From assembly GCF_003814915.1 (NCBI RefSeq), contig NZ_RKQK01000001.1:760031-824030 (forward strand): 64,000 nt of DNA, given 5' to 3'. Made by a program: the position numbers and the translations under genes. Below are positions 5,735 to 42,539 of the stretch, piece after piece. This DNA comes from Pacificibacter maritimus (GTDB taxonomy: Bacteria; Pseudomonadota; Alphaproteobacteria; Rhodobacterales; Rhodobacteraceae). The notes under the pieces were generated by a model. That model searched no databases and had not been told where the DNA came from. It worked only from the letters and a program-made list of their open reading frames with translations. Position 1 is the stretch's first letter; each line of letters opens with the position of its first letter.

Positions 5735-7027
5735 TCACAAAACTACATTGAACGGCTGCATATCCCACTCAAGACGCAGTGTAGGGTGATCCGTGTTGTC
5801 CAACACCATCAAATCAAGTGTGTAGTACCCATCAACACCTTCAACCCATTGAGCTGAAACCATTTTCACAATACCCGCACCTGACACAGGACCGCTGGTC
5901 ATATCAATAGGCCCCAACATTGTGTCGGTTTTCAAATTAACCAGTGATGTCATAATGCTTTCACGGTCAAGGCCTTTTGCGCCTTTAAGCCCTTGAATAC
6001 CAACATCAAACAGCCCTTGTGTTGCCCCCAAACGTGAGGTCCATTGGTTGCCCGTCGCGGTTTCATATCCAAAGGCCAACGATAAGCTGCCCACACCTGT
6101 TACAGGGGATGAATATGGAAACCCTTTGGTCCATTCGGTCAAAATCGTCAGGCCAATCGCTGATGCGCCGAGACTATCAACATCCTCGGGAAATCCGCCA
6201 GTTTTTGCGACTTGCACCACTTTCAGTTTGGCAGATAACGGGCTGGCTTTCAGTTGTGGCATGAACTTCACAAAATCATCATTTTCCATAACGATAATCA
6301 AAGTATCGGCACCACCTTTATCCATATGCGCCAGATTTTCAGACCAATCCTGCGCGCCCTTTTCATAGCGCTGAAATGGCAGAACCTCGTATCCCGTTTT
6401 TGCATAGGTGCCTGTGAGGAATTTTTCGACGGTAGCAGACTCTGGGCCTGCTTCAATAATGACAGAAACTTTCTTGTTTGAGTTCACTTTGTCGAAAGCG
6501 CGCGTGGAGACCACGGAACTATCGGCAATATCCGCACCAATATGGGCCGTCCATTGGAACGGGCTTGGCTGGCCAGCTTTGCCACCACGACCAAAGTACC
6601 AAACTTCCCATGGAGGACCGAACGTCAGACATGGCATATTGGCCGCTTCGCAGATGTTTGCGACCTCGTTTAGCGCCTGAGACTCACTTGCGCATAGCAT
6701 CAAATTGATGCCCTGATCGATCAAGGACTGCGCAATACCAACCGTGCTGTCGATATCAGCGCCCTCTGCGGCCATAATAATATCAACAGGATAAGTGGTG
6801 CCCGCGATGTCGATCCCATCTGCCAAAGCGGTGCGCAGTTCTTCAACCACGTATTGTGCATCGGGTGCGGCGCCGCCTGTCGCAGGGTCACGTTCTGGAA
6901 TAAATCCGATGCGGACCGGCGTCGAGGCATTGGCGAGTGTTGGCATGCCAGCGGCAAGGGCAATGCCAGAGGTCACCCCCATTCTTAGGAATGAGCGGCG
7001 AGAGAACTGAGAACCAAAACTGTGCAT
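5735..7027 (-). CDS. Tat-exported ABC transporter substrate-binding protein, branched-chain amino acid type, orphan
   Basis: A 430-residue periplasmic binding protein of the Leu/Ile/Val-receptor class. The N-terminus has a twin-arginine signal, SRRSFLRM at residues 9-16, then a hydrophobic core and a probable cleavage after LANA near residue 34. The mature protein begins STPVRIGFIPERDP, with the two-lobe pattern of this fold. The family usually works with two LIV-type permeases and two ATPases; none is in this window, so it is an orphan that either borrows a transporter encoded elsewhere or acts as a sensor input. Export of a binding protein by Tat rather than Sec is less usual. The ligand cannot be inferred. 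Confidence 0.85.
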   Translation of the reverse strand: MHSFGSQFSRRSFLRMGVTSGIALAAGMPTLANASTPVRIGFIPERDPATGGAAPDAQYVVEELRTALADGIDIAGTTYPVDIIMAAEGADIDSTVGIAQSLIDQGINLMLCASESQALNEVANICEAANMPCLTFGPPWEVWYFGRGGKAGQPSPFQWTAHIGADIADSSVVSTRAFDKVNSNKKVSVIIEAGPESATVEKFLTGTYAKTGYEVLPFQRYEKGAQDWSENLAHMDKGGADTLIIVMENDDFVKFMPQLKASPLSAKLKVVQVAKTGGFPEDVDSLGASAIGLTILTEWTKGFPYSSPVTGVGSLSLAFGYETATGNQWTSRLGATQGLFDVGIQGLKGAKGLDRESIMTSLVNLKTDTMLGPIDMTSGPVSGAGIVKMVSAQWVEGVDGYYTLDLMVLDNTDHPTLRLEWDMQPFNVVL

Positions 7028-7166
7028 AAATACCGACCTTGTGACTGATGAGAATAACCTTACGCACCAGCATTATAGTCGAACGCATTTAACGGAGCCT
7101 TAAGCCCCAAAAAAATTATGGCATGCAAAAAATGCACGCCCTAATTAATTGATATGGAATAGGAAA

Positions 7167-38675: not shown

Positions 38676-38715
38676 AAAAATGCCCGTTTGCGAGACTTTC
38701 GCGGCGGGCATTTTT
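38676..38715 (+). terminator. Terminator after tRNA-Pro
   Basis: Arms AAAAATGCCCG (38676-38686) and CGGGCATTTTT (38705-38715) form an 11-bp stem with an 18-base loop that may fold further. A T-run closes it. It separates the tRNA from the dCTP deaminase gene. Confidence 0.8.
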
Positions 38716-38764
38716 GCGTTATGAATACGCCAACAAAATCAAGGCCATCGGCTGGGAGAAGACT

Positions 38765-39841
38765 ATGGGTGTTTTAGCAGATCAAGCGATTGAACAGATG
38801 ATCAAATCTGGGGCAATCCATGCGACGCCAGCCGTGATTGATGCGCAAATTCAACCCGCCTCACTGGACCTACGCCTCGGCAATCGCGCTTGGCGTGTGC
38901 GGGCGTCATTTTTGGCGGGGGCTGGAAATAGCGTCGCCGAGCGCCTCACTGAATTTGAGATGCATCAAATCGATTTAACCCAAGGTGCCGTGCTGGAAAA
39001 GGGCTGTGTCTACGTCGTGCCCTTGATGGAAAATCTTGATTTACCCGAAACAATTCAAGCGGTTGCTAATGCAAAAAGCTCGACGGGTCGCCTTGATCTA
39101 CTCACGCGCTTGATCACTGACGAAGGTGTTGAATTCGATCGGATCGCATCTGGCTACACTGGTCCGTTATATGCGGAAATTTGCCCAAGGTCATTTTCAG
39201 TGCTGGTACGCCCTGGGATGCGGCTCAACCAAATTCGGTTCCGTGAAGGTCAAGCCGTGCTCAGCGATGCTGACCTGCATGATTTGCACATGAAATCGCC
39301 CTTGGTGGATGGCGAAGCGGTGATCGACCAAGGTTTGGGGTTTTCCGTTGATCTACGCCCAAGCGATGGGGATCTTGTGGGCTATCGCGCCAAACCTCAT
39401 ACGGGGGTCATTGATCTGGATTTAATCGGTCATTACGACCCCGCCGATTACTGGGAGCCGATTCACACAAAGGATGGGCGGATCATTTTGGACCCCGGCG
39501 CTTTTTATATTTTGGTCAGCCGAGAAGCTGTACATATCCCGCCAGAAATGGCCGCGGAAATGGCGCCCTACTTGGCAATGGTCGGCGAATTTCGCGTGCA
39601 TTACGCGGGTTTCTTTGATCCAGGCTTTGGGCATGCCAATGCTGGCGGCACAGGGTCACGCGGCGTATTGGAAGTGCGTTGCCACGAAGCCCCTTTTGTC
39701 TTGGAACACGGCCAAATCGTAGGGCGTTTGGTTTACGAACAAATGAACGAAGTGCCACAGCGTTTGTATGGCGCCGACCTGAAATCAAATTACCAAGGGC
39801 AAGGTTTGAAACTGTCTAAGCATTTCAAACCACCTGTTTAA
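38765..39841 (+). CDS. dcd: 2'-deoxycytidine 5'-triphosphate deaminase, long two-domain form
   Basis: A 358-residue enzyme of the Dcd/dUTPase superfamily, about twice the length of E. coli Dcd (193). The N-terminal half has IQPASLDLRLGNRAW and the catalytic-side block NAKSSTGRLDL; the C-terminal half repeats the fold with GFFDPGFGHANAGGTGSRG and LEVRCHEAPF. This long form is typical of alphaproteobacteria and probably behaves as a fused dimer giving dUTP for thymidylate synthesis. The ATG at 38765 has GGGAGAAG before it; an upstream TTG would start within the tRNA terminator. Confidence 0.92.
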   Translation: MGVLADQAIEQMIKSGAIHATPAVIDAQIQPASLDLRLGNRAWRVRASFLAGAGNSVAERLTEFEMHQIDLTQGAVLEKGCVYVVPLMENLDLPETIQAVANAKSSTGRLDLLTRLITDEGVEFDRIASGYTGPLYAEICPRSFSVLVRPGMRLNQIRFREGQAVLSDADLHDLHMKSPLVDGEAVIDQGLGFSVDLRPSDGDLVGYRAKPHTGVIDLDLIGHYDPADYWEPIHTKDGRIILDPGAFYILVSREAVHIPPEMAAEMAPYLAMVGEFRVHYAGFFDPGFGHANAGGTGSRGVLEVRCHEAPFVLEHGQIVGRLVYEQMNEVPQRLYGADLKSNYQGQGLKLSKHFKPPV

Positions 39842-39879: not shown

Positions 39880-41328
39880 TCAATGCAAGGCGCGTTTTGA
39901 CGTGAATGTCGTGACCAAATCCGCAGCACGCTCTGGCAATTCTTGGCCAAATAAAACCACGCAGTTCTTGCCCCGTGATTTGGCTGAAAACAAGGCATCA
40001 TCGGCTTCTTGAATTGCACCCTCCAAGGTTTTTTCGCCCGCTTTTGACAAGCTCGAGACACCGATAGACATTGTAACAGGGTCGTTGCGTCCCACATTGC
40101 TCCAGCATACGGATGTCGCTATGGCGACCCTTAAAACTTGCGCAACTTTCATGGTTTCTCGTGCTGATAGGTTGGGCAATAGGATTAAAAACTCCTCCCC
40201 CCCCCAGCGTGCGACCACATCAAGACCGCGCACGCGTTCACATAAAACGCGGGAAATTTCGCGCAAGACACGATCGCCTTCGTCGTGGCCACTCACGTCA
40301 TTGATGCGTTTGAACATATCCACATCGGCTAATATCACGCCGACATGGTCATGGGTGTTGACCAGATGTGTGCCAGCGATCGTACGGCGAAACATCCGCA
40401 TATCGCGCACAGCGCGTCTGTTCCACAGACCCGTCAGAGGATCAAAATTGGCTTTGCGTTTCATGTCGCGTTCTTGCACGCGGCGTTGTCGATCAACTTT
40501 TTCGAACACAAACCCCGTCGACAAAATGGTCACAAGAAACAGCCATAGCATACCGATTATAACGGGTTCGATCACCGTTTCACGCCCTGTTTGCAAAACG
40601 ATATACCCCAAAAACCACGCGCCAATCGACAAAGATAAAAGCTGAAGTCGCGCCAAGCGGCCCCAAGAATAGGTTGTCAAAAACGGGCGCAGCAAGGGGG
40701 CGCGCGCAAGGAGCAACAGTTCTGCCAGTCCCAAAAGGAACAGCACAACCGACATGGAAACGGGGATCATCGCATATCCACCAAAGTTGTTATAACTGAG
40801 CGCGAGAAGTGAAACTAAAGGAAAGCATAAACTGCTTAAAATCAATACGATAGCAGCCGATTTATATCTATAACTTGAAAGCACACCAAGGCTGAGGAAA
40901 AACAAAGGAATGGCTGCAACCAACCCCATTTTCATAGGCTGCACGGCGCCCCACAAGAGTTGATCAAGTGCATTAGACACAGGCGACGCGCGTAGAATGC
41001 CGATTTCAGCAAAGCGAATACAGCTCACAATCAATATCAAAGCGTAAACGCAATTTTTAACCCAAATAAACCGCTTTGCGAACAGACCTGTAAAAGCTGC
41101 GCCCCCAATCAGCACAACGCATAGCACGCAAGCACCGTCAAAAACCGCATCGCCAAAGCCAAAGTTATAGCCACGTTGGCGCGCCCCAATCGATATCAGA
41201 TACAAAGCGGCAACCAAAAGTCCTGCATAGATAAAAAGTGTTTTTATCTGCAAAGCTGTCGCAATCGGTCGAAACCATTTCGTACGCGCTCTATGAATAT
41301 TGCCTGTAACTTGGGTTGGAGTTTTCAT
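39880..41328 (-). CDS. Membrane-bound GGDEF diguanylate cyclase
   Basis: A 482-residue inner-membrane enzyme making cyclic di-GMP. The first 290 residues form a membrane sensor region of about eight hydrophobic segments of unrecognised class. The GGDEF domain occupies about residues 300-465, with the active motif GGEEF at 376-380 and an intact inhibitory I-site RGLD at 367-370, five residues before it. No EAL domain is present. I use the ATG at 41328; a TTG 37 codons earlier is unlikely because it would overlap a perfect CtrA-type box. It should control surface versus swimming life, and CtrA control fits that. Confidence 0.9.
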   Translation of the reverse strand: MKTPTQVTGNIHRARTKWFRPIATALQIKTLFIYAGLLVAALYLISIGARQRGYNFGFGDAVFDGACVLCVVLIGGAAFTGLFAKRFIWVKNCVYALILIVSCIRFAEIGILRASPVSNALDQLLWGAVQPMKMGLVAAIPLFFLSLGVLSSYRYKSAAIVLILSSLCFPLVSLLALSYNNFGGYAMIPVSMSVVLFLLGLAELLLLARAPLLRPFLTTYSWGRLARLQLLSLSIGAWFLGYIVLQTGRETVIEPVIIGMLWLFLVTILSTGFVFEKVDRQRRVQERDMKRKANFDPLTGLWNRRAVRDMRMFRRTIAGTHLVNTHDHVGVILADVDMFKRINDVSGHDEGDRVLREISRVLCERVRGLDVVARWGGEEFLILLPNLSARETMKVAQVLRVAIATSVCWSNVGRNDPVTMSIGVSSLSKAGEKTLEGAIQEADDALFSAKSRGKNCVVLFGQELPERAADLVTTFTSKRALH

Positions 41329-41432
41329 AGAAAGTGGTCTGACCTTGAACTCATACGCTGGAACTCCGAAGTAACGTTGATAAATTAGCCCCAAAATGCC
41401 AATTTTTTCACAGTGTGTTTGCCTCGCAAAAG

Positions 41433-41448
41433 TTAACAAAAGGTTAAC
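41433..41448. promoter_or_regulatory. Perfect CtrA-type box upstream of the diguanylate cyclase
   Basis: The sequence TTAACAAAAGGTTAAC fits the full CtrA consensus TTAA-N7-TTAA(C) on both strands, being a near-palindrome. It lies 105-120 bases before the chosen diguanylate cyclase ATG, in the only long non-coding space before that gene. In Rhodobacterales CtrA controls motility, gene transfer agent and cyclic di-GMP genes. Confidence 0.65.
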
Positions 41449-41572
41449 AATTTTACGTAAATTGACCTAAGGGTAATCTTAGGTCGTTTCCCGAGAACTT
41501 CGGCGAAAATTCGCGCGCTGAGATGAAAAAATCGCAAGTTGTAATGTATTTTGCGACAGATCCTTCAAGCGA

Positions 41573-41818
41573 CTAGCGCATGCGGCCCAAACGTGCAGCT
41601 TTGCGGGCGCGCTTGGCTGCCTGCTTTGCCGCTTGAGAGTTTTGCCCAGAGTGTGGGGCATTGTTTTGATCCTCAGCCGAAAAGCCATCCTCAGCTTGGC
41701 TGTTGTTTTGAGCGCCACGCCCTTTGGTCACTGCGTTGATCCCTGCCCCGATGCCCTTATTTAACACACGGCGCATCACTTGACGGATAACCATATTCAA
41801 AAGTCGATCAATATTCAT
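41573..41818 (-). CDS. Small basic hypothetical protein after scpB
   Basis: An 81-residue protein with a basic amphipathic N-terminus (NIDRLLNMVIRQVMRRVLNKGI), an acidic Asn/Gln/Ser-rich middle and a strongly basic Lys/Arg/Ala C-terminus ending RLGRMR. It has no signal peptide. It lies 43 bases after scpB on the same strand, so it may belong to the argS-to-scpB operon. Short proteins of this type occur at this position in other roseobacters, as far as I recall, but no function is known to me. The basic tail suggests nucleic-acid or membrane contact. Confidence 0.7.
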   Translation of the reverse strand: MNIDRLLNMVIRQVMRRVLNKGIGAGINAVTKGRGAQNNSQAEDGFSAEDQNNAPHSGQNSQAAKQAAKRARKAARLGRMR

Positions 41819-41861
41819 CAGTCATTCCTCGCTTGAAGCTGTCGTGCTATGGATGCGACGC

Positions 41862-42539
41862 CTAGCTTTCGTCTTCGAACAAATCATCCTGCTCGTCCGC
41901 GTCTTCTTCACTTATATCCCCCATAACAGGCATCGGACGATTTTCCAACAAGCCCGCCGCACGCAGCTCTTTCAAACCCGGCAAATCACGGGCTGTTTCC
42001 AAACCGAAGTGATCTAAAAACACGGGCGTCACAGTATAGGTCACGGGGCGGCCTGGCGTCATGCGCCTGCGGCCAAACCTAATCCATTCCATTTCGATCA
42101 ACTGATCAATCGTACCACGAGACACAGAAACACCACGAATTTCTTCGATCTCAGCGCGGGTACAGGGCTGGTGATAGGCGATAATAGCCAAGGTTTCGAT
42201 CGCTGCCCGCGACAGTTTGCGGGTCTCTACGGTTTCTTTTTGCATCAAAAACCCAAGATCAGGCGCCGTACGGATCGCCCAAGCCTCACCGACACGCACC
42301 ACGCGCACACCGCGCCCTTCATAGCGGCGCTGCAATTGCTCAACGGCTGCTTTGGGATCACAACCATGCGGCATGCGACCAGCCAGTTCTGCAAGACTGA
42401 TCGGATCAGCCGAGCCAAATAAGACAGCTTCAACCATGCGTTCTTGTTCCGCTAAGGGCGGTGCTTCGAACAGGCTTTCACGCGGAGCATCGGCGGTGTT
42501 TTGGGCGTTCTCAACGGGTTCAGTGATATCTTGACTCAT
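41862..42539 (-). CDS. scpB: Segregation and condensation protein B
   Basis: A 225-residue subunit of the SMC-ScpAB condensin. Two winged-helix domains are visible: the first about residues 30-105, the second with AIIAYHQPCTRAEIEEIRGV and LIEMEWIRFGRR. The start overlaps the scpA stop by 4 bases, so the two subunits are translated together. The end is acidic and probably unstructured. smc is not in this window. Confidence 0.94.
   Translation of the reverse strand: MSQDITEPVENAQNTADAPRESLFEAPPLAEQERMVEAVLFGSADPISLAELAGRMPHGCDPKAAVEQLQRRYEGRGVRVVRVGEAWAIRTAPDLGFLMQKETVETRKLSRAAIETLAIIAYHQPCTRAEIEEIRGVSVSRGTIDQLIEMEWIRFGRRRMTPGRPVTYTVTPVFLDHFGLETARDLPGLKELRAAGLLENRPMPVMGDISEEDADEQDDLFEDES

Follow-up and report, generated by a model that had tools for sequence, protein, structure and literature searches.

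Does CtrA act directly on cyclic di-GMP (c-di-GMP) synthesis in Pacificibacter maritimus? The question is raised by a 16-bp CtrA-type box, TTAACAAAAGGTTAAC, at 41433..41448 of a 64,000-nucleotide stretch of this genome (contig NZ_RKQK01000001.1, positions 760,031 to 824,030), in the leader of a membrane diguanylate cyclase gene. The whole stretch is referred to below as the window, and its coordinates are used throughout. We interpret the 16-mer as a predicted CtrA binding site and count the cyclase gene among the direct targets of CtrA in this roseobacter, with a probability of roughly 0.75. A direct tie of CtrA to c-di-GMP synthesis in this organism is plausible.

The box and the cyclase gene

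The full-site motif of CtrA has been described as TTAA-N7-TTAA(C), and in roseobacters as TTAAC-N5-GTTAAC (PMC4046655, PMC7232146; all published work is cited here from excerpts). An exact motif search and a repeat finder located the box, and the motif TTAACNNNNNGTTAAC was matched without mismatch at 41433-41448 on the plus strand and at 41432-41447 on the minus strand, where the box reads TTAACCTTTTGTTAAC, and nowhere else in the window. The box fits TTAAC-N5-GTTAAC exactly on both strands, as two GTTAAC half-sites in direct repeat with an 11-bp period. A half-site of a Crp/Fnr-type regulator (FnrL or Dnr) can resemble TTAAC, as in the TTAAC-N4-GTCAA at the nosR2 promoter of Dinoroseobacter shibae (PMC7232146). 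However, the spacing and the right half of the box fit the CtrA form given in the same source and not the Fnr/Dnr form, and we regard a Crp/Fnr-type site as very improbable.

The box occupies -119 to -104 relative to the ATG at 41328, within a 244-bp leader (41329..41572, minus strand; delimited from the sequence, the list of open reading frames and a promoter scan) whose far edge is the stop of a small open reading frame at 41573. There was no other exact box in these 244 bp. The exact form TTAAC-N6-TTAAC arose in 27 of 20,000 dinucleotide shuffles of the leader (284 bases, 150 of them from the longest open reading frame), which is a chance of about 0.001. Relaxed boxes were not enriched across the window: TTAA-N7-TTAA with one mismatch was found 11 times against 15.3 expected, and the 16-mer, when at most two mismatches were allowed, 6 times against 8.2 expected. 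The box is therefore notable for its exactness and its place only.

The gene downstream (39883..41328, minus strand, with its stop codon at 39880-39882) encodes 482 residues from the ATG at 41328, as determined from the open reading frame list, a domain search and motif reading. A GGDEF domain (PF00990) was matched with 127 bits at residues 293-455, and the GGEEF A-site and the RxxD I-site (RGLD) are both intact in RGLDVVARWGGEEF, residues 367-380 counted from the ATG. The hydropathy of the N-terminal half indicated a hydrophobic region of about eight helices. An AlphaFold model built from four sequences also had helices there, at low confidence (mean pLDDT 57.9). As predicted from its sequence, the protein should be a membrane enzyme that makes c-di-GMP. 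An earlier note on this DNA, made from its letters, had described an exact box on both strands, alone in the leader of a cyclase with an intact GGEEF motif and I-site, and each of these points held when the sequence, coordinates and domains were checked.

The same note had placed the start of the gene at the ATG and not at an upstream TTG. The longest open reading frame, of 519 residues, begins at 41439 with an in-frame TTG (41437..41439, minus strand; open reading frame list and frame alignment) that lies inside the box. After stop-to-stop alignment of the open frames, an in-frame ATG occupied the same column in the window and in all three genes of the closest relatives found to carry the cyclase, which are genomes filed as Pacificibacter marinus. 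In L003 and L004, as in the window, the frame is open through the box, but in locus L002 (genome G008) the open frame starts downstream of it, only 15 nt before the longest open reading frame of that locus. The upstream TTG was rejected as a start on the strength of the L002 frame and of the ATG common to all four genes, in agreement with the note. Remoter orthologues, except L013, had no methionine in the ATG column. The invariant first methionine in a second alignment (A2) was there by construction, as that alignment was built from those ATGs, and it was not used as support.

Conservation of the element at orthologous loci

The cyclase gene lies between a convergent dCTP deaminase gene (38714..39841, plus strand; PF06559 and PF22569) and, upstream, an open reading frame of 81 residues on its own strand (41573..41818; no family match) followed by scpB (41862..42539, minus strand; PF04079). 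This order, with the deaminase and scpB as markers assigned by domain matches, was kept in 13 loci. Twenty genomes of the genus were searched and 12 of them, counting the one with the window, had it; the thirteenth locus is in a genome from a different genus. A comparable small open reading frame was in the same place in 10 of the 13. The contig search yielded the three P. marinus loci and 30 loci that matched only from residue 249 onward. The latter were excluded from the leader comparisons, and a non-syntenic locus (L014) was excluded from the leader counts.

In its relaxed form, TTWAC-N6-TTWAC, which was selected after inspection of the leaders, the element was present in seven of the 13 syntenic leaders, the window included; over 2000 shuffled sets the mean was 0.04 and the highest count 2. 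These seven leaders are not independent and represent about three groups of related genomes. In the surroundings of the gene in 13 genomes, 260 kb in all, the relaxed form occurred at seven places, every one in these cyclase leaders. When 20-mers of the window leader were compared with each P. marinus leader in turn, with no motif given, conservation was highest at the box, with identities of 17, 17 and 16 of 20, matched in 0 of 60 shuffles each. The distance of the element to the aligned ATG was -119 in the window and -106, -105 and -106 in P. marinus. In the P. marinus versions one half-site is TTTAC, and in genomes G018, G011 and G012 both are. In the leaders of L006, L008 and L009 the TTTAC element is also preceded, at a distance of about 10 bp, by a shared inverted repeat, ATGTC-N4-GA(C/T)AT.

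In the family-wide search, at least 10 of 394 genomes had a cyclase match at E up to 1e-60, with at most four candidates scored per genome. Of the nine genomes besides that of the window, seven were scored and six of these were syntenic; L126 and L129 went unscored as the filter found no WGG(D/E)EF frame in them. One of these six further syntenic loci, the remoter L128, had an exact TTAA-N7-TTAAC beginning 59 bp before the longest open reading frame.

These results bear on the possibility that the box arose by accident and has no regulatory role. The leader is AT-rich and the strict form was missing from the 12 other syntenic loci, as might be expected of an accident. Against this stand the chance of about 0.001 for an exact box in the leader, the confinement of the relaxed element to cyclase leaders and its rank as the best conserved leader stretch against P. 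marinus. We consider an accidental box quite improbable, and the box represents a real, partly conserved element that resembles a binding site, most likely for CtrA.

CtrA and its motif elsewhere in the genome and genus

The genome with the window (3.08 Mb in 8 contigs, from a roseobacter) encodes CtrA, as judged by the NCBIfam equivalog NF045991 (428.9 bits against a cut-off of 350). The best solved relative of this protein was the CtrA chain 4qpj, residues 1-118. A ctrA match at E up to 1e-60 was found in 20 of 21 genomes, and GTAAC-N6-TTAAC was present in the ctrA leader of all 13 genus genomes compared. The flagellar regions of seven genomes (280 kb) contained 25 strand hits of at least 9/10, 16 of them intergenic, and several of these sites precede genes read as flgE, flgB/fliI and fliF. 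Three genomes (G009, G010 and G004) had a ctrA match and no match to the flagellar rod domain PF00460; the cyclase element was kept in G009 and G010 and not in G004. In G010, a SPOR-domain gene has a 9/10 site, TTAACAACGGGTTATC, in its leader (L097:5095-5110), and G009 has a weaker copy.

In the 3.08-Mb genome itself, TTAA-N7-TTAAC gave 18 strand hits at 14 places. The spacings from 1 to 15 together gave 125 strand hits, with 18 at spacing 7 and an average of 7.6 at the others (P about 0.001). At eleven of the 14 places, a plausible open reading frame (109 residues or more) starts no more than 150 bp away. The genes behind these 11 include a PAS-only DivL-type protein, a TadG-like protein, a hybrid histidine kinase, a two-GAF protein, a 158-residue regulator-like protein, a GAF-PAS-GGDEF-EAL protein and the membrane cyclase. 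In D. shibae, divL and a Tad pilus gene have predicted CtrA sites (PMC4046655, PMC6473078). In the genome and the genus the same motif precedes genes of the CtrA-target type, such as ctrA and flagellar genes.

Two of these places deserve description. An exact TTAACCCATCGTTAAC lies at L152:3448-3463 (G000:C4:130447-130462), 39 bp before a gene for a 533-residue PAS-only protein (L152:1807-3408) that adjoins a gene read as regB. DivL of the Rhodobacterales is described as PAS only (PMC9430884), and this protein is probably the Rhodobacterales form of DivL. At L154:2137-2152, a TTAA-N7-TTAAC stands 47 bp before the gene (L154:1613-2089) of the 158-residue receiver-like protein, which had no Pfam match. 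This protein recalls in kind the CckA inhibitor Osp (PMC9430884), a likeness drawn from the description there.

The exact form TTAAC-N6-TTAAC gave 9 strand hits at 8 places genome-wide. It precedes two GGDEF genes out of the five that this genome has, and two others have 8/10. Given the 8 exact places, the rough chance of an exact box at two of five GGDEF genes is 3e-6. The GGDEF genes were examined because of the finding at the cyclase, and the second gene emerged from the box list before its domain was known. Its box, at L151:2712-2727 (G000:C2:24711-24726), is 9 bp before a gene (L151:2737-5370) for the GAF-PAS-GGDEF-EAL protein, of 877 residues. Each P. marinus genome gave four GGDEF hits, none of them with a frame of this size. 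Scores cover neither the fifth GGDEF gene (L147) nor the P. marinus genes L144-L146, as the pattern found no GG(D/E)EF in them.

Half-sites of the TTTAC type and other regulators

We scored the leaders with a matrix derived from the ctrA and flagellar sites, which took 12 of the 13 cyclase leaders (G006 missing). The window box reached 18.3 of 18.3 and the P. marinus boxes 13.1. Among 126 other leaders, 0, 2 and 10 reached scores of 18.3, 13.1 and 7.8, respectively, and one of the 2 and three of the 10 were cyclase-leader sites seen from spurious open reading frames (three background rows, from G009, G012 and G002). The top ranks on the matrix went to the boxes of the window and of P. marinus, and not to the forms with two TTTAC half-sites.

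Several observations weigh against the interpretation of the element as a CtrA site. The strict TTAA-N7-TTAA was absent from 13 other cyclase loci, 12 of them syntenic, and the perfect box was missing from close relatives that retain the gene (present in 0 of 12), an outcome that the earlier note had named as a refutation. Conservation of the box upstream of orthologues, as the earlier note had put it, stood for the relaxed element (6 of the 12 other syntenic leaders) and not for the strict box. Six of the 13 leaders (G001, G019, G006, G004, G002 and G025) lacked even the relaxed form, although three of these have TTCAG-N6-TTAAC or nearly so. The form with two TTTAC half-sites (G018, G012 and G011) scored only 7.8 of 18.3 on the matrix. 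No TTTAC half-site was found among the sites of at least 9/10 at ctrA and flagellar genes, and in the flagellar stretches TTWAC-N6-TTWAC occurred solely at the divL-type box. The reversed pattern was about as common as exact TTAAC-N6-TTAAC (7 against 9 strand hits) and was commoner in three other counts (36 against 18 for TTAA-N7-TTAAC, 534 against 125 for all spacings from 1 to 15, and 47 against 20), so raw motif counts alone prove nothing. As the reversed pattern differs in composition, the spacings were compared in its stead. Lastly, no sigma-70 consensus promoter was found in 41300-41850, a result that suits an activator-dependent promoter and proves nothing.

Genome G008 offered a further view of the TTTAC half-site. 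TTTAC-N6-TTAAC occurs at four places in this genome, including the cyclase leader, and one of them is 1 bp before the longest open reading frame of an RcpC/CpaB pilus gene. This site is mild evidence that CtrA may accept TTTAC in this lineage. The remaining two places count against CtrA: an MscL-like gene follows one, and the other is within a coding frame.

These data are also where another regulator of the OmpR/PhoB family has to be weighed, one that would prefer TTTAC half-sites with the same 11-bp period. The window version would then have drifted to a CtrA-like form, or both regulators would share the site. An 11-bp direct repeat is generic for this family, which counts in favor of such a regulator, as do the TTTAC half-sites of the relatives, their absence from the 9-of-10 sites of ctrA and flagellar genes, and the seven matches in the genome to the family DNA-binding domain PF00486. 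On the other hand, the window sequence matches the CtrA box perfectly, several other full boxes in the genome precede genes of the CtrA-target type, and TTTAC-N6-TTAAC also stands before the RcpC/CpaB pilus gene in G008. We find an OmpR/PhoB-family regulator of this kind unlikely to be the owner of the element. CenR was considered separately as the regulator and was set aside because its motif, TGA-N8-TGA in the excerpt of PMC9275681, is absent from the box.

The TTTAC half-sites may represent a drifting CtrA site or the site of another OmpR-family regulator. One reading, which we consider rather unlikely, is that a single conserved element of 11-bp period has stayed in position in this genus as its half-sites changed between TTAAC and TTTAC. 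Either CtrA would then recognize TTTAC in this lineage, or control of c-di-GMP synthesis would pass between CtrA and another OmpR-family regulator at one site.

A possible feedback circuit

If CtrA does bind at the cyclase gene, phosphorylated CtrA (CtrA~P) would contact the two half-sites as a dimer. The box would most likely lie at or just upstream of the -35 element, with a promoter firing into roughly 70-100 nt before the ATG at 41328. In Caulobacter, activating CtrA sites lie near -35 and repressing half-sites over -10 (PMC6180460), and by that precedent activation or repression would depend on where transcription starts. CtrA~P would most likely activate the cyclase gene, and the cyclase would then make c-di-GMP. 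In Caulobacter, c-di-GMP drives CckA to its phosphatase mode (PMC7200025), and by this precedent the product of the cyclase would lower CtrA~P. We speculate that the arrangement would constitute a delayed negative feedback and a timer from the motile to the sessile state. Binding, activation over repression, the transcription start, enzyme activity and feedback are all given here as what we infer.

If the proposal of CtrA control is correct, full-consensus sites at two of five GGDEF genes would build c-di-GMP metabolism firmly into the CtrA phosphorelay, giving a compact feedback between motility or cell cycle and attachment. The natural series at one locus (TTAAC/TTAAC, TTTAC/TTAAC and TTTAC/TTTAC) would then offer a way to test how much drift a CtrA site tolerates before it loses its function.

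Comparison with known CtrA-controlled systems

Hyphomonas, Dinoroseobacter and Phaeobacter have already been reported to place c-di-GMP genes under CtrA control (PMC7200025, PMC6473078, PMC12363192), so the cyclase gene would be a good new example and not a new kind of system. No publication on this cyclase gene in Pacificibacter was present among the matches listed, as far as their titles and the starts of their abstracts go. In Hyphomonas neptunium, where the CtrA motif is likewise TTAA-N7-TTAAC, six c-di-GMP genes have been called direct CtrA targets on the basis of chromatin immunoprecipitation sequencing and expression (PMC7200025). The organism and the genes differ from ours, and binding was measured there, whereas the site described here is known from its sequence.

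D. shibae is, like P. maritimus, a roseobacter, and a CtrA site is predicted in front of its cyclase gene dgc2, with 82.5% as the matrix cut-off for acceptance (PMC6473078). Unlike the membrane cyclase, the dgc2 product has a receiver domain (PMC7232146), and in our reading it matches in type the two-receiver GGDEF gene L131 of the present set. D. shibae is described as having only two cyclase genes (PMC6473078, PMC12363192), and its c-di-GMP rises after autoinducer starts the CtrA cascade (PMC6473078). Turnover of c-di-GMP has been named a core CtrA target in Phaeobacter inhibens and D. shibae: in P. inhibens five c-di-GMP genes were repressed 2-4 fold in the three mutants, and a single dgc gene was down in both species (PMC12363192). 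That regulon rests on expression data, unlike the sequence evidence considered here. The CtrA-activated flagellar promoters of Cereibacter (Rhodobacter) sphaeroides share the motif class and the bacterial order with the present case. They differ from it in that they serve flagellar genes and have mapped transcription starts and mutated sites (PMC6180460).

Other features of the window

An inverted repeat, GACCTAAG-N6-CTTAGGTC, with perfect 8-bp arms lies at 41464..41485, 15 bp from the box on the side away from the cyclase. It was seen by eye and confirmed by a script; the repeat finder did not report it. This repeat was absent from the P. marinus leaders, and it is a candidate terminator or operator.

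A second exact TTAA-N7-TTAA, TTAACGGAGCCTTAAG, without the final C, occurs in the window at 7089-7104. It is 61 bp upstream of an open reading frame of 430 residues that starts at 7027 and encodes a periplasmic binding protein (PF13458).
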